NCBI GenBank assembly: GCA_020152595.1
Contig: JAIGNY010000316.1
Span: 615,001 to 679,000 of the forward strand
Direction: 5' to 3'
Length of the DNA: 64,000 nucleotides
DNA from: Chiridota heheva
Lineage: Eukaryota > Echinodermata > Holothuroidea > Apodida > Chiridotidae
The notes beneath the pieces were generated by a model. The model saw only the letters and a program-made list of their open reading frames with translations, searched no databases and was not told the origin of the DNA. Positions 5,726 through 64,000 of this stretch are shown in pieces. The position numbers were made by a program, and so were the translations under genes. Within the stretch, counting starts at the first letter, position 1, and every line of letters begins with the position of its first letter.

Positions 5726-6196
<471 letters not shown>

Positions 6197-8237: not shown

Positions 8238-9839
8238 ATTCAGACATGAAGGATGTTTTTGAGACGAGAAAGTTTTGGGAGATAATTTAAAGGAAACAAG
8301 TCCTCATCATGGTTGGTGAAAGAGATACCTAAATATTGTACTGTACCGTGTGGAATTTTAAAAATACAGTTTGTAATATGGGGTGGGGGAGATGAAATAA
8401 AAACACCAACAGGGAACAGCAGGGGTTTATCAAAATTAATAACGAGGCCTGAATTCTTACGGAAATCATTGAGTACGGAAACAATTGACTTAATAAAATG
8501 TTCAGAGCCATCAGTAAACAGTACTGTGTCGTCAGAGTATTGTATAATTTTGATTTTAATATTATCAATATTAATAATGTTGATATAATGATTTTGTTTA
8601 ATACGCATGCATAAAATTTAAGAGCAGAGAATATAAATGTAAGGGCTTAAAAGGCATCCTTGTCGCACACCTCGAAGAACAGAAAAATAATTACTACAAT
8701 AACCATTACTGATCACACAGGTCTCAGCTTTATAATAAAGAGTATGAATCCATTTTCTAAAGGCACGGTCTATGTTAAAATAAGAAAAGACATCATCAAT
8801 AAAATGATGATTCAACGAGTCAAAGGCCTTTTCAAAGTCTAAAAACAATAATAAGCCTGGAATGGAATGTTTATTACAATAAGAGATATTATCTAGAACC
8901 ATGCGTACATTTGCCCCAATATATCTTCCTTTCAGAAAACCGGTTTGCTCCGGACTTATAATCTTATGTACAGCATGTTTGAAGTGATTGGCTAAAGCTT
9001 TAGCTGCGATCTTACAAGCAATATTAAACAAAGTAATTGGTCTCCAATTTTTAATAAAAGTAAGATCTTTATCAGGTTTGGGGATTAAAGAAATAATAGC
9101 CTGTTTTCGAAAGGGGGAGAGCTCACCATTAAAATAAGCATAAATAAGAGAATTGACTACAACAAACCTATATCATCTCAATTTTTTTGTTGATAGAACT
9201 CCGATGGAAAACCGTCATTCTCTAGTGATCTGTTAGAAGGCATGGACAACAACTTTGAAAGCTTGTTTGCAATCAACCAGTGAGAGGGGCCATCACTTAT
9301 GAAACTATTATCACCACACGTTAGATTAATGATATTTAAATTATTTAAAAGAAGTACATGGATCATACACAAGATGTTAAGAGTACAGATTACTATACAA
9401 ATTCTTAATTTCCTCCAGTATACGATTGTAATCAATAAATGTAGCACCTTCATTATTTATAAGTTTTTTAATAGCACTCTTAGACTTATTTCTACGCTCT
9501 TAATACAAAATAATAATAACGGGTGTTCTTCTCTCCTCCTTCAATCCATCTAGCCCTTAAACGAATAAAAATACCTTGTAGTTTATAATCATAGAGTAAA
9601 TTTAACTCATCTTTACAATTCTTAAGGGTAGAAGCAATATCGTTATTATGACATGAAGCTATAAGTTGTTCTATATGTGAAATATCTCTTATGAGTACTC
9701 GTTCATTAGCTGCAGCTTTCACGGGACTTCTGTATAGAGTAATCTATAGTAAACAACCTGATTTGCATCTTAATAGTTTCCCATAACAACGAATCATTAA
9801 AGTTGGGGAAAAGGGTAACAAACGTAGGCTTCTATGGTC

Positions 9840-11619: not shown

Positions 11620-12160
11620 TTTTATTGATTAACTTTGTTTGATTCTCAATTCAATTCGGATAAAAGACTTAGATTACTCTAAATCATTTTTTCATACCAT
11701 TTATCTCGTGCACAATTATTAACTTTAGTGAAAAAGCTATCCGAATAATCAACTGGGATCAACTTATTCCACTAAATTCTTCCAGTCAGTTGTTAGCTTA
11801 TTAAACTGATTACAAACGCTTTACACGAGTATGAGGTAAACTAAAGGTGCAATCAATTGCAAACACAATTGCTGATCATTACATAGAAGATGTAGAATTC
11901 AAAACTCGCACAGTACATCAATCCCCATTAACCAGTTAAGAGACACATTAATGAGACATGCAGTGGTAAGTAATTTGGGGGCATACGTTGGTAAAAATTT
12001 AATTGCGATATTATGTTCCAAGCAATTTTACAAATGTTGTTGTCGAGTCAACCCTAATTTTGTCCAAATTTTGAGTGCTCTAAAGTCCGAGTCCTGCAAA
12101 AATGGTATATATTAGAGTCCCACAACACCATCATTTTAGGGTTAACCCTCAACCTAATTT
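11620..12160 (+). repeat. Segmental duplication, upstream block, copy 1
   Basis: Blocks such as CTCAATTCAATTCG, ACGAGTATGAGGTA, ACTCGCACAGTACA, GAGTCAACCCTAATTTT, GTCCTGCAAAAA and GGGTTAACCCTC recur in the same order at 19620-20870, ahead of the intact LRR gene. This places the start of the duplicated unit well upstream of the LRR coding part. Here the block holds no THAP element, unlike copy 2. Confidence 0.75.
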
Positions 12161-12165
12161 ACTTC

Positions 12166-15100
12166 GAATCCCGAAGTGGGCATATGATGTTTCTCTCACC
12201 ATCTCACATTTATTATTCAAAGGTTCCAGTGGAGCACTGCACTCCACCCATCTCTATATTTAATTACGTAGCTGTACTTGAGCAACCCAGAGAGAAATTG
12301 ATGTCTTAGGGAACAATTCGAGTAAGAAATACCACTTGGTCTCATACCTTAGTGGTAGATCAATCGAACGGTATTCGTGGGGTCTCGGGTTCGAATCCCG
12401 ATGAGGACATATGATTTTTCTCTCACCATCTCACATTCATTATTCAAACGTTCCAGTGAAGAACTGCATTCCACCCATTTTAAACCGTTTATATATTTAA
12501 ATTACGTAGTTGCACTCGAGTAACCCAAAGAGAAATTGATGCCGTAGGGAACATTTTGAGGAGGTAATAACATTTGGCCTCATAGCTCAGTGGTTGAGCG
12601 ACCAAACGGTAGTCTGAGATCTCGGGTTTGAATCCCGATGAGGGCATATGATTTTTCTCTCACCATCTCACATTCATTATTCAAAGGTTCCAGTGGAGAA
12701 CGGCAATCCACCCATTTCACGTCCATCTCTATCTGTCTATATTTAATTACGCAGCTGTTCTCGAGCATTTCCAGAGAGAAATGGATGCCTTAGGGAATAA
12801 TTCGAGGGGGTAATACCACTTGGTCTCATAGCTCAGTGGTCGAGCAACCGAACGGTAGTCGGGGATTTCGGGTTCGAATCCCGATGAGGGCATATGATTT
12901 TTCTCTCACCATCTCACATTCATTATTCAAAGGTTCCAGTGTAGAACTGCATTCCACCCATTTCACACCGTCTCTGTATTTAAATTACGTAGCTGTCCTC
13001 GAGCAACCCAGAGAAAAATTGATACCTTAGGGAACAATTTGAGTGGTAATACCACTTGGCCTCATAGCTAAGTGGTAGAGCAGCCGAACGGTAGTCGGTG
13101 GTCTCGGGTTCGAATCCAGATAAGGGCATATGATTTTTCTCTCCTCATCTCACATTCTTTATTCAAACGTTCTAGTGGAGAACTGCATTCCACCCATTTC
13201 AAGCCATCTCTATATTTAATAACGTAGCTCTACTCGAGCAACCCAGAAAGAAATTGATGCCTTAGGGAATAATTCGAGGGGGTTATAATACAACTTGGCT
13301 TTATAGGTCAGTGGTAGAGCAACCGAACGGTAGTCGGGTGACTGGTTTAAATCCTGATAAGGGCATATGGTTTTTCACCTCTCACCATTCATTATTCAAA
13401 CTTTCCAGTGGAGAACTGCATTCCACCAATTTTACACCATCTTTATATTTAATTATGTAGCTGTCCTCGAGCAACCCAGAGAGAAATTGATGCCACAGGG
13501 AACAATTCGAGGGGATAACACAACTTCGGTTCATCGCTCAGTAGTAGACCAATCGAACGGTAGTCTGGGGTCTCGGGTTGGAATACAGATGAGGGCATAT
13601 GATTTTGCTCTCACCATCTCACATTCATTATCTAAAGGTTCCAGTGAAGAACTGCATTCCACACATTTCACGCCATCTCTATTTTTATTTACGTGGCTGT
13701 TCCCGAGCATTTCCAGAGAGAAATTGATGCGTTAGGGAACAATTGGAGGGGGAAATACCACTTGGCGTAATAGCTCAGTGGTAGATCAACCGAATGGTAT
13801 TCGGGGGTCTCGGGTGCGAATCCCGATAATGGCATATGAATTTTCTCTCACCATCTCACATTCATAATTCAAACGTTCCAGTGGAGAACTGCATTCCACC
13901 AATTTCACACCATCTTTATATTTAATTATGTAGCTGTCCTCGAGCATTTCAGAGAGAAATTGATGCCTCAGGGAACAATTCGAGAGGATAACACAACTTC
14001 GGTTGATCGCTCAGTAGTAGAGCAATCGAACGGTAGTCGGGGGTCTCGGGTTGAAATACAGATGAGGGCATATGATTTTGCTCTCACCATTTCACATTCA
14101 TTATTTAATGGTTCCAGTGAAGAATTGCATTCCGCACATTTAATGCCATCTCTATATTTAATTACGTGGCTGTTCCAGAGCATTTCCAGAAAGAAATTAA
14201 TGCCTTAGGGAACAATTGAAGAAGAAAATACCACTTGGCCTCATCGTTCAGTGGAAGAGTAACCGAACGGTTCCAGTGGAGAATTGCATTCCACCCATTT
14301 TACACCGTCTCTGTATTTAAATTACGTAGCTGTATTTGAGCAATCCAGAGAGTAATTGATGCCTTAGGGAACAATTCGAGTGGGGTAATACCACTTGGCC
14401 TCATAGCTCAGTGGTGGAGCAATTGAACGGTAGTCGGGGGTCACGGGCTCGAATCTCGATGAGGGCATATGATTTTTCTCTCACCATCTAACATTAAATA
14501 TTCAAACGTTCCAGAGTAGAACTGCGTTCCCCCCATTTCACACCGTCTCCATATTTAAATTCCGTAGCTATCCTCGAGCAATCCAGAAATAAATTGCTGC
14601 CTTAGGGAACAATAAAAGGGGGTAATACAACGTGGCCTCATAGCTAAGTGGTAGAGCAACCGAACGGTAGTTGGGGTGTCGGGTTGGAATCCCAAAGAGG
14701 ACATATAATTTTTCTCTCATCATCTCACATTCATTATTCAAAGGTTCCAGTGGAGAACGGCAATCCACCCATTTCACGTCCATCTCTATATTTAATTACG
14801 CAGCTGTTCTCGAGCATTTCCAGAGAGAAATGGATGCCTTAGGGAATAATTCGAGGGGGTAATACAACTTCCCCTATAGCTCAGTGCTGGAGCAACCAAA
14901 CGGTAGTCGGCGATTTCGGGTTCGAATCCCGATGAGGGCATATGATTTTCCTCTCACCATCTCATGTTCATTATTCAAACGTTTCAGTGTAGAATTGGAA
15001 TCTATATTCAAATTCCGTAGCTATCCTCGAGCAATCCAGAGAGCAATTGATGCCTTAGGGAACAATAAAAGGGATAATACCACTTGGCCTCATAGCTCAG

Positions 15101-16545
15101 TGGTAGAGCAGCCGAACGGTATTTGGGGGTCACGGGCTCGAATTCCGATGAGGGCATATGATTTTCCTCTCACCATCTTATGTTTATTATTCAAACGTTC
15201 CAGTGTAGAATTGGAATCTATATTTAAATTCCGTAGCTATCCTCGAGCAGCCCAGAGAGAAATTGATGCCTTAGGGAACAATTGGAAGAAGAAATACCAC
15301 TTGGCCTCATAGTTCAGTGGTAGATCAACCGAACAGTATTCGGGGGTCTGGGATCGAATTCCGATGACGGCATATAATTTTTCTCTCACCATCTCACATT
15401 CATTATTCAAAGCTTCCAGTGAAGAACTGCATTCCACACATTTCATACCGTCTCTATATTTAATTACGTGGCTCTTCCCGAGCCTTTTCAGAGAGAAATT
15501 GATGCTTTAGGGAACTATTGGAGGAGGAAATACCACTTGGTCTCATAGCTCAGTGGTAGAGCAGCCGAACGGTAGTCGCGGGTCACGGGTTCGAATCCCG
15601 ATGGGGGCACATGATTTTCCTCTCACCATCTCTCCTTCATTATTCAAAGGTTTCAGTGGAGAACTGCATTCCACCCATCTCTATATTTAATTACGTAGCT
15701 GTATTCGAGCAAACCAGAGAACAATTGATGCCTTAGAGAACAATTCGATGGGGTAATACCACTTGGCCTCATCGCTCAGTGGTAGAGCAACCGAGCAGTA
15801 GTCGGGGGTCACAGGTCCAAATCCCGACGAGGGCACATGATTGTCCTCTCACTATCTCTCATTCATTATTCAAACGTTTCAATAGAGAACTGCATTCCAC
15901 ACATTTCCCACCATCTCTATATATAATTACGTAGCTGTACTCGAGCAACCCAGAGAGAAATTGATGCCTTTGGAACAATTCGAGGGGTAAAACCACTAAG
16001 CCTCAGAGCTCAGTGCTAAAGCAACCGAACGGTAATCGGAAGTCTCGGTTCGAATCCCAATGAGGGCATATGCTTTTTCTCTCAAAATCTCATGTTGATT
16101 ATTCAAACGTTCAAGTGGAGAACTGCATTCCACCCATTTCACACCGTCTCTGTATTTAAATTACGTAGCTGTACTCGAGCAAACCAGAGAGAAATTTATA
16201 CCTTGGGGAACAATTCGAGGGGGTAACACCACTTCGCCTCGTCGCTCAGTGGTAGAGCAACCGAACAGTAGTCGTAAAATCACGGGTTTGAATCCCAATG
16301 AGGGCACATAATTTTACCTCTCACCATCTCACATTTATTATTCAAACGTTCCAGTGGACAACTGCATTCCACACATCTCTTTATTTAATTACGTAGCTGT
16401 ACTCGAGCAACCTACCCTGAGAGCAATTGATACCTTAGGGAACAATTCGATGGAGTAATACCACTTGGCCTCATAGCTCATAGCTTAGTGGTAGAGTAAC
16501 CGAACGGTGGTCTGAGGTCTCGGGTTCGATTTCCGATAAGTGCAT
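12166..16545 (+). repeat. Tandem array of about 20 tRNA-like units, period about 235-245 bp
   Basis: Each unit has a tRNA-like head of about 71 nt followed by about 165 nt of shared spacer. The head carries an A box (TAGCTCAGTGGTAGAGC), then CCGAACGGTAGTCGG, then a B box (GGTTCGAATCCC) and a TGAGGGCA end. The spacer contains CTCTCACCATCTCACATTCA, GGAGAACTGCATTCCACCCA, TATATTTAATTACGTAGCTG and GAGAGAAATTGATGCCTTAG. A-box starts lie near 12346, 12586, 12831, 13067, 13306, 13536, 13773, 14009, 14247, 14406, 14643, 14878, 15096, 15309, 15549, 15777, 16009, 16242 and 16480; a partial unit opens the array. The unit near 14247 is deleted internally. Most heads are followed by a T4-T5 run (ATGATTTTTCTC), a possible RNA polymerase III terminator. 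The array sits between the duplicated upstream block and the LRR pseudogene and is absent from the other copy of the duplication. Confidence 0.93.
12822..12892 (+). tRNA. tRNA-like gene or pseudogene, best-preserved example of the array
   Basis: It folds as a cloverleaf. The acceptor stem GGTCTCA pairs with TGAGGGC with one mismatch at 2:71. The D arm is GCTC-AGTGGTC-GAGC. The anticodon stem CCGA pairs with TCGG around the loop ACGGTAG. The T arm is TCGGG-TTCGAAT-CCCGA with five perfect pairs, and the discriminator is A. A T5 run follows at 12898-12902. The formal anticodon would be GGT, but position 33 is C rather than the near-universal U, and GGT is not a normal eukaryotic threonine anticodon. 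A functional translational tRNA is therefore unlikely; a tRNA-derived repeat or pseudo-tRNA is preferred. Confidence 0.4.
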
Positions 16546-16659
16546 TTTTCTGTATGTGAAGGGCAGGGGTGGATGAATCCTTCGCAACTTGTCCGTGACA
16601 GTGTTTTTCAGTGCAATGTCAAAAGCAGATTCTCAAAATGCTTCTATTTTCATCCGTAG

Positions 16660-17775
16660 GTGTCCGAACTGGCTATTAAGTGTTTTCTTATATTCCTCTT
16701 CTGGCCAACGTTTTCTGCGTAGGATGTGTACCCATCAGGTTGCAGATGCAAGTACAAATCTTACCTATATTGTGAAAAGCTGGACTCTTTCCCGTACTCT
16801 TCATTTGAAGAACAATTCAAAATTATTCTGTGGAACACGTCACTTTCTTCAACGAGGTACCCAGCTGTATACAACAAAGAAACTTCACATAGCTCCAATA
16901 TCAACTGGACCTGTTTGGGCTAACGTTTGATGATAATGGCATCTCTCACACTTGGGACAGCTACAGCTTCAGCCTGATCAATCTTGAAAAGTTTACTCTC
17001 CGTAACAACTACATCAGAACATTTTCAACAGAACTTCTCAAAATAATGCCAAACATTAGTTATCTGAATTTACAGAAAAATCTGATTGATGGAATTCCAC
17101 CATTGGCCTTTACTTCAACTTTCCATATAAAAATAGTAATACTTGCTGGAAATAACATTCTAAATGTTGAAGAGAATTCCATGAACATGCTTGCAAACTT
17201 GTCTATTTTTCAGATTGCAGGTAATGAATTGAATTTAATACCTGAGGGGCTGTTTCGGGAAAACAAAAACCTGATATCTCTTGATAATAGTTCTAATAAG
17301 ATTACATTTATACCACCAGCTCTTACCTTCAGCTCAAATAAGTATATTTAACATGTAGGCCTATATTTTTTAAAACATCTAATACATAATTTTGGTCGAA
17401 GCTGCTTTCATAACTTATTGTTTCTCAAAATCGTAGATCTCGGGCATTGTAGTCTTGTTCATCTACCTGATGATCTCACTGGTAACACAACCCTGTTTAG
17501 ATTACTAAGTTTGAGATTACAAAATAATAGTTTATCTTTAATCCCAACACAACTCTTACGCCATATGCCAAATCTTCAATTCCTAGATATGAATAACAAC
17601 GTGATAAAAAGCATACATAAAGATACTTTTAAACACAATCAACAACTTCAGTTTTTGTATCTAATGAAGAATGAAATTAACGTTGTGCACCCTGGAGCAT
17701 TCACGGGAATCGGGTCAAAATTCCCTTGGATTAACTAAATCACAACAATTTGTCAACACTGGAATACGGTTCTTT
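16660..17775 (+). pseudogene. Leucine-rich-repeat membrane protein pseudogene (copy 1)
   Basis: This is a paralogue of the intact gene at 20976-22487. The exon begins after a matching splice acceptor (TTCATCCGTAG at 16649-16659) and encodes the same signal-peptide region (VSELAIKCFLIFLFWPTFSA), but a TAG stop follows at 16720-16722 where the intact copy has Gln. The first Cys of the LRR N-cap is changed to Tyr (YPSGCRC). Frameshifts lie in the 16800s, and the frame is lost again at about 17350 (a stop in place of the DYVQYLNF segment) and about 17737. LRR blocks remain readable at 17046-17340 and 17418-17730. Homology ends near 17775, so the last LRR, the C-terminal cap and the membrane segment are missing. 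The tRNA-like array ends only about 115 bp upstream. Confidence 0.9.
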
Positions 17776-19600: not shown

Positions 19601-20120
19601 AGATCGCCTTAAATCTGTTTCAATCTCAATTCAATTCGAATTCATACCTTAAATTACTTTAAATCATTTCCAAATTGCAATTTCATTCTAATGTAAAAGT
19701 TATTAAAAATGATGAATTGGGATAAATTTATTCCCCCAACTTCGCCAACGTCGTTATAGTTGTTAAAATATTGAAACACAATAGAATCACATTAAACGAG
19801 TATGAAGTACACTAAAGGTGTAGACCAATTGCACACACAATTATTGATCATTGCAAACAAGATTGGTAGAATTTCAAACTCGCACAGTACACCAATACTT
19901 ATAAAGAGACACTTATTCGGAACTGTAAATTTCAAATATTGGTTATAGAAATGACCCTTAACCTTATTTTGCAAACTTTTCCATATTTTGCAGTTAGGGG
20001 ATGTACAGTCATCATGAGGCCTGCAGTTGTAACTGGAATTTTGGGGAATGTGTTGGAAGACGATTTTATTGCCATATTATTTTCCAACCAATTGTACAAT
20101 TGTCGTCGGCGAATCAACCC
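19600..20120 (+). repeat. Segmental duplication, upstream block, copy 2
   Basis: It matches 11620-12070 in order and orientation. The match resumes after the THAP element at about 20744-20870 (GTGTGCAAATTTGGAGTTCC, CAGTCCTACAAAAACGGG, GGTTAACCCTC). It then runs into the region just upstream of the LRR exon, which also matches copy 1 (about 16550-16660). Confidence 0.75.
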
Positions 20121-20124
20121 TATA

Positions 20125-20739
20125 GGGTGTTTCAGCTGACGTCATGAGGTCACTTGACTTTGTTTACATCGCCATTTTGTCGAGCGAGAACGATAGTCTA
20201 CTGTACTGCTGTACATTTATTTAGACTTACAAACGCTTGCATATTGTTATATAAGATACTTTTTGTAAGATAATTATGCCGGAATCTTGCTGTGCCATGG
20301 TTGCACTAATAGACGTGTGCCGGGAATAAAAAGACGTTTTCTCGATTTCCATCTGATCATAAACGACGTTCACATTGGGTTTCTGCTGTACGAAGGCAAC
20401 GTCTTCCAACCTTCGGTTCACACTAGGATTTGCAGTGAGCACTTTATGCCAGGTATGTAGGCTTTGTCTGCGTATAACGAACAATCAGATGGCGTTCACG
20501 TAAAAGTTACTCTTCGTATACCCGGTGAATATATAAAACGTTAGGAAAATATGAAGTAAAATCGTCGCCGCGAACAAAAACAATAAATTTCGGTGAACTG
20601 GTACTGGTAGGCAGGTTAGCAGGCAGTGTGTTTATTGTACGTGTGGTGTGACTGTACTGTGTGAAGATGCGTGAAACACAATGACGCTTTCCCGGCAAAA
20701 TGGCTCCCAGATAATTAGAGTCACGTGATGATATCCCTC
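20125..20739 (+). mobile_element. THAP-carrying short DNA element, copy A
   Basis: Boundaries come from comparison. Copy 1 of the segmental duplication reads straight through (GTCAACCCTAATTTTGTCC) where this copy is interrupted. The sequence is flanked by TATA (20121-20124) and TATT (20740-20743), which suggests a 4-bp target duplication with one change. The left end is GGGTGTTTCAGCTGACGTCA and the right end is GTGATGATATCCCTC. A shorter relative lies inverted at 54110-54590 with the same ends and TATA on both sides. The element contains a broken THAP zinc-finger exon (20277-20452) and no recognisable catalytic domain, so it is a deletion derivative or a captured exon. Confidence 0.75.
20277..20452 (+). 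pseudogene. THAP-type zinc finger exon, frameshifted
   Basis: It starts with MPESCCA, and further on, across frame changes, it reads as a THAP domain. Fragments CTNRRVPGIKRR, RFPSDHKRRSHWVSAVRR and ICSEHFMPG are recoverable in different frames. The Cys pair near the start and the C-x-x-H at ICSEHF match the C2CH pattern of THAP DNA-binding domains. A donor-like GTATGT follows MPG at 20453. At least two single-base frame breaks and a TAG are visible, so it is not translatable as it stands. THAP domains occur in P-like and Kolobok transposases as well as in host genes; the location inside a bounded element points to the former. Confidence 0.7.
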
Positions 20740-20975
20740 TATTTGTGTGCAAATTTGGAGTTCCCTTGTCCCAGTCCTACAAAAACGGGAGAAGAGTCCT
20801 ACAACACTGTTATTTTAAGGTTAACCCTCTACCCAATACAATAATTTATATACATAAGTCGTTTGTTGTGCGTGAAGAGAGGTGGGTAGATAAATCCTCG
20901 GCAACGTGCATGTGATTATTTTTTCATCGCCACATGAAACTCTGACTCATTCAAATTTTATATTCATCCGTATAG

Positions 20976-22487
20976 GTATCTGAACTGGCTGTCAAATGTT
21001 TTCTTCTATTCCTCTTTTGGCCGGTATTTTCTGCTCAAGATGTGTGCCCGTCAGGATGCAAGTGCGGTAGTAACATATATGACATGGACATGTTTTGTAA
21101 CAAGCTGAACGCTTCATCTGAAGAACAATTCAAACAATTCAAAAATTATTCTGTGAAGTACATCAGTATCATAAACGAGGTACCCAGCCATATGCAACAA
21201 GGAAACTTCACATGGCTCCAATATCAACTGGGTCTGCTTCAGCTGTATTTTCTTGATAATGGCATATCTCACACTTGGGACAACTACAGCTTCAGCCTAA
21301 TCAATCTGGAACAGTTTTCTCTCAGTGGCAACCACATCAGAAAATTTCCGACAGGCCTTCTCAAAACCATGCCAAACATTATTTATCTGGATTTACAGAA
21401 CAATCTGATTAATAAAATTCCATCATTGGCCTTTTCTTCAAATTTCCATTTGGAAATATTGCTACTTAGAAATAATAACATTGTTAATGTTGAAGAGAAT
21501 TCCATGAACATGCTTGCAAACCTATCTACTTTTCGGATTGCACGTAATAAATGGAATTTAATACCTGAAAGGCTGTTTCGGGAAAACAAAAACCTAAAAT
21601 CTCTTGATTTTAGTTCTAATAACATTACATTTATACCACCTCTTACCTTCAGCTCAAATGATTATGTTCAATACTTAAATTTTCGAAGAAATCCAATACA
21701 TACTTTTGGGCGAAGCTGCTTCCAGTACTTATGGTCTCTCAAAGGCCTATTTCTTGAGCATTGCAGTCTTGTTTATCTACCTGATGATCTCACTGGTAAC
21801 ACAACCCTGTTTAGATTACTAAGTTTGAGATTACAAAATAATAGTTTATCTTTAATCCCAACACAACTCTTACGCCATATGCCAAATCTTCAAATCCTAG
21901 ATATGAATAACAACTTGATCAAAAGCATACCTAAAGATGCTTTTAAACACAATCAACAACTGGTATCTTTGTTTCTTATAAAGAATAGAATAAACGTTGT
22001 GCACCCTGAGTTATTCACAGGAATCGGGTCACCATCCCTTTTTATTAATCTGAATGACAACAATTTGTCAACACTGGAATATGATTTTTTTAATATTTCC
22101 GAAGGGACTACCATGAGAATGCAACTCGGAGGAAATCCATGGCTCTGTTCATGTTCGTTTGTCTCAATGCTCATCATGGTGCAAGATTTTGTTAGGATTC
22201 TGGATGAACCCATATGTGTTGGACCAAGCAATGTTGTAAATAAGACATTTTCTGAAGTAAGATATATGGTTCTGGTAGACCTCCTGTGTAAACCCACAAC
22301 CACTTCTTCAATGTCAATCATGGTAACAACCGAAATAGATCTGGATCACATACCTGTAATTCATTACATCATTATTTGCTGCATACTTTCATTGGTCGTG
22401 TTTTCCTGCGTCTTCATATCAGTCAAAAGTATCAAAATAATATGCTTACTGCAGTCTGACTTTGGAACCGACACCACAACGTTATAG
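20976..22487 (+). CDS. LRR transmembrane protein, signal-peptide to stop in one exon
   Basis: The frame opens after an acceptor-like TTCATCCGTATAG (20963-20975) and runs 503 codons to TAG at 22485-22487. It encodes a hydrophobic signal sequence (KCFLLFLFWPVFSAQD) and a cysteine-rich LRR N-cap (CPSGCKC). About twelve LRRs of 23-27 residues follow (pattern LxxLxLxxNxI), then an LRR C-cap (NPWLCSCSF with later CVGP and LLCKP) and one membrane segment (VIHYIIICCILSLVVFSCVF). The cytoplasmic tail is about 20 residues. This is a type I cell-surface receptor-like layout. There is no TIR, kinase or Ig domain, so it is not a complete Toll-like receptor; a decoy, adhesion or co-receptor role is only inference. 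No in-frame ATG lies near the signal sequence, so the start codon is probably in an upstream exon that I could not locate. A pseudogene paralogue lies 4.3 kb upstream. Confidence 0.85.
   Translation, partial: VSELAVKCFLLFLFWPVFSAQDVCPSGCKCGSNIYDMDMFCNKLNASSEEQFKQFKNYSVKYISIINEVPSHMQQGNFTWLQYQLGLLQLYFLDNGISHTWDNYSFSLINLEQFSLSGNHIRKFPTGLLKTMPNIIYLDLQNNLINKIPSLAFSSNFHLEILLLRNNNIVNVEENSMNMLANLSTFRIARNKWNLIPERLFRENKNLKSLDFSSNNITFIPPLTFSSNDYVQYLNFRRNPIHTFGRSCFQYLWSLKGLFLEHCSLVYLPDDLTGNTTLFRLLSLRLQNNSLSLIPTQLLRHMPNLQILDMNNNLIKSIPKDAFKHNQQLVSLFLIKNRINVVHPELFTGIGSPSLFINLNDNNLSTLEYDFFNISEGTTMRMQLGGNPWLCSCSFVSMLIMVQDFVRILDEPICVGPSNVVNKTFSEVRYMVLVDLLCKPTTTSSMSIMVTTEIDLDHIPVIHYIIICCILSLVVFSCVFISVKSIKIICLLQSDFGTDTTTL

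Positions 22488-36461: not shown

Positions 36462-64000
<27,539 letters not shown>

Follow-up and report, generated by a model that had tools for sequence, protein, structure and literature searches.

Two insertions within a 64-kb stretch of DNA (the window, by which we mean the whole stretch analysed) carried the same ends, interrupted sequences that were continuous elsewhere in the window, and in one case retained a broken THAP-coding exon. We read these copies, A and B, as two old relics of a single family of DNA transposons that carried a THAP domain. We give a probability of roughly 0.5 to the reading that they are MITE-like deletion derivatives of a PHIS/ISL2EU-like cut-and-paste animal transposon. 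The features on which this rests are collected in Table 1.

Table 1. Coordinates in the window of the two element copies, their target sites and the parts recognised in copy A.
Feature	Position	Strand	Remarks
Element copy A	20124..20739	+	Ends common to B; interrupts sequence continuous at 11951-12158
Element copy B	54110..54591	-	Shares ends with A; 482 bp under a TAT duplication
Left target copy of A	20121..20123		TAT
Right target copy of A	20740..20742		TAT
Left target copy of B	54592..54594		TAT; TATA if 4 bp
Right target copy of B	54107..54109		TAT; TATA if 4 bp
Empty site of A	12055..12057		Other segmental-duplication copy; now reads TAA
Empty site of B	53710..53713		TATA; opposite inverted-repeat arm
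5' terminal and subterminal block of A	20123..20181	+	AGGG, TGACGTCA, TCACTTGAC, GCCATTTTG
3' terminal and subterminal block of A, inverted	20690..20739	-	GAGGG, TCACGTGAC, GCCATTTTG
THAP-coding remnant in A	20276..20452	+	ATG to GT at 20453; frameshift-broken

The left flank of A (20014-20122) matched 11951-12056 and its right flank (20739-20837) matched 12054-12158, so the partner sequence is continuous where A sits. The flanks of B matched 53150-53713 and 53710-54109, which lie in the other arm of the long inverted repeat that holds B. We searched with the joined flanks of each insertion (40+40 bp, A joined at TA and B at TATA, with the element's own two halves set aside). The top match of A lay at 12017 (54/80) and that of B at 53674 (66/80), and the runner-up scored 43/80 in both cases. 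Each insertion has an uninterrupted partner elsewhere in the window and both empty sites are real, as an earlier sequence-only reading of this DNA had claimed. The inverted repeat that hosts copy B extends over 53150-55171, with arms that are 81% identical in their outer parts and 74% near the centre, and is perhaps itself a foldback element.

An array of tandem units, each about 237 bp long, occupies 12163-16545 (about 18 units by length); seven of its units passed the Rfam tRNA threshold and two were called tRNA-Thr GGT by ARAGORN. In the other copy of the duplication, the sequences that flank this array (ending at 12158 and resuming at 16536) are separated by just 16 bp (20837, 20854). Two leucine-rich-repeat gene copies, at 16536-17775 and 21042-22487, are about 80% identical; the latter holds an open 481-aa ORF and the former has stops in all three forward frames. 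Elsewhere in the window are a self-complementary stretch of about 700 bp (36785-37484, 73%) and 467 bp of (AT)n repeat (5726-6192, 98% matches).

Copies A and B lie in opposite orientations and align in two blocks, a 5' block with 75% identity across 199 alignment columns and a 3' block with 74% identity across 131. The local alignment scores of these blocks were 176 and 98, against maxima of 32 and 24 for random segments of the window (2000 drawn for each block, of which 1933 and 1941 were kept after those near A or B had been dropped). This agreed with the coordinates, inverted orientation and shared ends previously proposed for the pair. Copy A measures 616 bp with a TAT duplication and 615 bp under the 4-bp reading. 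Both copies are internally deleted, and A is taken to be non-autonomous. A profile built from the ends of A and B detected no further copy in the 64-kb window; its next matches had E values of 0.75 and 1.5.

A THAP domain had been proposed for copy A, and this was upheld, but the domain is split over frames. With the frame changes read through, the A exon matched Pfam THAP with 48.9 bits (E 1.2e-12; cut-off 23.9). Left untouched, its frame-0 piece scored 20.9 bits (E 6.2e-4) and its frame-1 piece 13 bits (E 0.18). Neither reached the cut-off of 23.9, but the two pieces were colinear in the profile (positions 18-43 and 45-58). In a comparison with solved protein chains, the best of eight matches were to THAP2 (E 6.4e-10) and THAP1 (E 3.9e-06), and three weak matches were to Toll-like receptor 2 (E 0.34 and above). 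NCBIfam returned no match, as expected of a library that covers bacterial and archaeal proteins. A possible splice donor is the GT at 20453, and the THAP sequence in A was presumably once part of a transposase. The THAP start proposed for copy B was not confirmed: as DNA, B aligns with A over the start codon and roughly a dozen codons, but neither of two B pieces gave a Pfam match at E values up to 10.

The ends of A also carry inverted subterminal sequences. When the 5' 60 bp of A was aligned with the inverted 3' 60 bp, the score was 29, compared with 95th and 99th percentiles of 20 and 24 among 1000 mononucleotide shuffles; the ends of B, aligned likewise but scored without a shuffle control, gave 31. 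The alignment in A spans TCAC(T/G)TGAC and GCCATTTTG, and the tips lie outside the aligned part; AGGG was noted by eye at each tip of A. How the tips read depends on the duplication. They hold GGG one to three bases in and, set beside the 5'-RR ... YY-3' ends of Kolobok, read AG...CT only under the 4-bp reading and AG...TC under the 3-bp reading; with an AT duplication A starts AGGG and its inverted 3' end reads AGAGGG, which makes the ends asymmetric. The 5' end of B is without a G run. We take TGACGTCA, CACGTG and AAAATGGC in these ends to resemble CREB, E-box and YY1 sites, and by this analogy the element ends may double as promoters.

The length of the target duplication was estimated by parsimony. 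Changes at the two sites were added up over 21 gapless positions, with the start placed anywhere from -6 to +8 and only lengths of 1-10 bp scored. At site A the left flank reads CTAT followed by A, the right flank CTAT followed by T, and the empty site CTAAT; at site B the corresponding sequences are GTATA, CTATA and GTATA. Lengths of 1, 2 and 3 bp each cost 6 changes (TA, AT or TAT), 4 bp cost 7 (CTAT, or TATA/TATT) and 8 bp cost 12. A duplication of 1-3 bp is thus preferred, with 4 bp possible at one change worse, and TA, AT and TAT are inseparable from two copies. The 4-bp TATA/TATT duplication favoured by the sequence-only reading was not confirmed: B has TATA on both sides and once in its empty site, but at A the TAT on both sides is followed by A on the left and T on the right, and the empty site reads TAAT.

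No transposase domain was found among 124 window ORFs (stop-to-stop, at least 75 aa, low complexity removed), a scan that missed A's own THAP remnant and would miss other decayed pieces too. The ORFs matched 17 families at E values up to 0.01, including leucine-rich repeats, reverse transcriptase and DEAH-type helicase-associated domains. With these matches, and with THAP domains reported from animals alone (PMC7776569), the window is eukaryotic and most likely of animal origin. Reverse-transcriptase pieces on the minus strand at 8240-9172 are probably a decayed LINE-like element. A catalytic part of either P-type or Harbinger/ISL2-type DDE was absent from A and B, and a YqaJ ORF was absent both from A and B and from the 124 ORFs. 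Among viral contigs, seven stretches fitted the THAP read-through pattern and none was confirmed, while two DNA patterns gave 0 matches each. One prokaryote-contig match (L001) to a 21-base pattern, an exact 21-mer with 23/24 agreement to B, was taken as chance. It sits inside a 271-aa ORF on a contig of 57% GC titled as an alphaproteobacterial MAG; the 5' end profile gave 13.3 bits on the same 21-mer bases and the 3' end profile gave no match.

The sequence-only reading had counted only P elements and Kolobok as THAP-bearing transposons. That list was incomplete, since ISL2EU also carries THAP (PMC4482050, PMC9179366). For ISL2EU, 25 families are described in 14 species, all of them animals, with AT duplications in an A|AT|T target and ends that are usually GG; a DDE-HTH-THAP transposase together with a YqaJ ORF is encoded by most of the candidates for autonomy (PMC4482050). 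ISL2EU transposases carry HTH or THAP (PMC9179366). PHIS elements are reported to have no duplication or one of 1-4 bp (PMC10045372). Copies A and B may share with ISL2EU a THAP domain (a remnant in A, undetected in B), a very short AT-rich duplication, G-rich tips as seen in A, and a likely animal host, and an AT duplication is one of the equally best readings over both sites. They differ in that the A|AT|T target is not seen at B (T|AT|A) and is ambiguous at A, that the tips of A are AGGG and not GG, and that the catalytic domain and YqaJ gene are unseen in either copy. We favour PHIS/ISL2EU over P or Kolobok because it unites a short AT-rich duplication, G-rich tips and THAP, although the placement is indirect because no catalytic domain was seen.

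Under the PHIS/ISL2EU-like reading, the parent element would have encoded, near its 5' end, a transposase starting with a THAP zinc finger. Copy A would have lost whatever separated the THAP exon from the 3' end, and copy B nearly all of the THAP exon as well, its interior differing from that of A; both retained ends with the inverted subterminal motifs (TCAC-TGAC and GCCATTTTG). We infer that a transposase from an intact relative, acting in trans, could have bound these motifs through its THAP domain. The copies would then have been excised and pasted into T/A-rich sites, probably with a staggered cut of 2-3 bp and a core of TAT.

One alternative, which we regard as doubtful, is a Kolobok-superfamily derivative with a relaxed target and AGGG...CCCT ends that would duplicate 4 bp (CTAT at A; GTAT on the left and CTAT on the right at B) in place of TTAA. 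Canonical Kolobok elements are described as combining THAP, a TTAA target and AG ends; their transposases usually carry THAP, and all ten full-length Xenopus Koloboks had AG ends, with AGG at six of the ten left ends (PMC6004289), features that A may share through its THAP remnant and AGGG tips. The 4-bp reading also makes the tips of A symmetric and gives a perfect CTAT repeat there, and KolobokP duplications are given as 3-4 or 4-5 bp (PMC9587614). However, TTAA is present at neither site (CTAT at A, with CTAA in its empty site, and GTAT at B), which disfavours canonical Kolobok by its target, and the 4-bp duplication costs 7 changes rather than 6 because the left flank of B has G where the right one has C. 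KolobokP differs further, as neither A nor B showed anything like its long terminal direct repeats, and the word THAP has 0 occurrences in the main text of the report describing it (PMC9587614). An internally deleted or MITE-like copy of a P-superfamily element is far less probable still. P transposases carry THAP, both P-derived MITEs and copies with internal deletions have been described (PMC7776569, PMC1562414), and an N-terminal THAP and internal deletion are shared with P elements, Pdre2/THAP9-like elements and P-derived MITEs alike. These all make 8-bp duplications, as reported for P elements and P-MITEs (PMC7776569, PMC1562414), whereas A and B favour 1-3 bp, and the P superfamily is disfavoured by this length at 12 changes against 6. 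The misfit that had been suggested from the letters alone was confirmed for P and for canonical Kolobok.

Another candidate is a cut-and-paste lineage that bears THAP but belongs to none of P, Kolobok and ISL2EU; it would have AGGG tips and either a 3-bp TAT or a 4-bp CTAT/TATA-like duplication. Each of the three misses some end or target feature tested. Published accounts of Crypton, pogo, THAP9 and crab DDE_Tnp_4 genes did not discriminate between the readings. However, two decayed copies cannot fix ends or duplication length, no transposase was seen in the window, and the misfit to PHIS is mild given its reported range of duplications (PMC10045372); we hold such a lineage to be unlikely, about as much so as a Kolobok derivative. 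By the rule described for Repbase, non-autonomous elements are assigned to one superfamily when they have the same duplication length and no more than one mismatch across their first 11 terminal bases (PMC4455052). Least credible of all is that no insertion took place, and that a host THAP-gene exon was copied with its flanks or both partner copies suffered deletions. THAP domains are common in host genes, and THAP genes are described that combine with DDE_Tnp_4 in Hydra or with a Harbinger-associated sequence in oyster (PMC10027918). Here, two unrelated sites have the same ends and a partner with one target copy, and host-exon copying is disfavoured because the same ends are found at two sites.

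The idea of an undescribed family, raised before ISL2EU and PHIS had been considered, survives in altered form: ISL2EU/PHIS, with its THAP-DDE transposase, AT duplication and usual GG ends, fits A and B better than an undescribed kind would, and an undescribed family within a known kind is plausible. Among the titles and abstracts listed in literature searches, none named this exact combination of features. For now, the family of A and B does not stand out among decayed DNA transposons. The paralogous empty sites of both copies would let the duplication length be read off directly, given more copies. If the family does have its own target rule, this would bear on the sharing of THAP domains among several transposase superfamilies, and on the small changes in staggered cutting that define PHIS groups.
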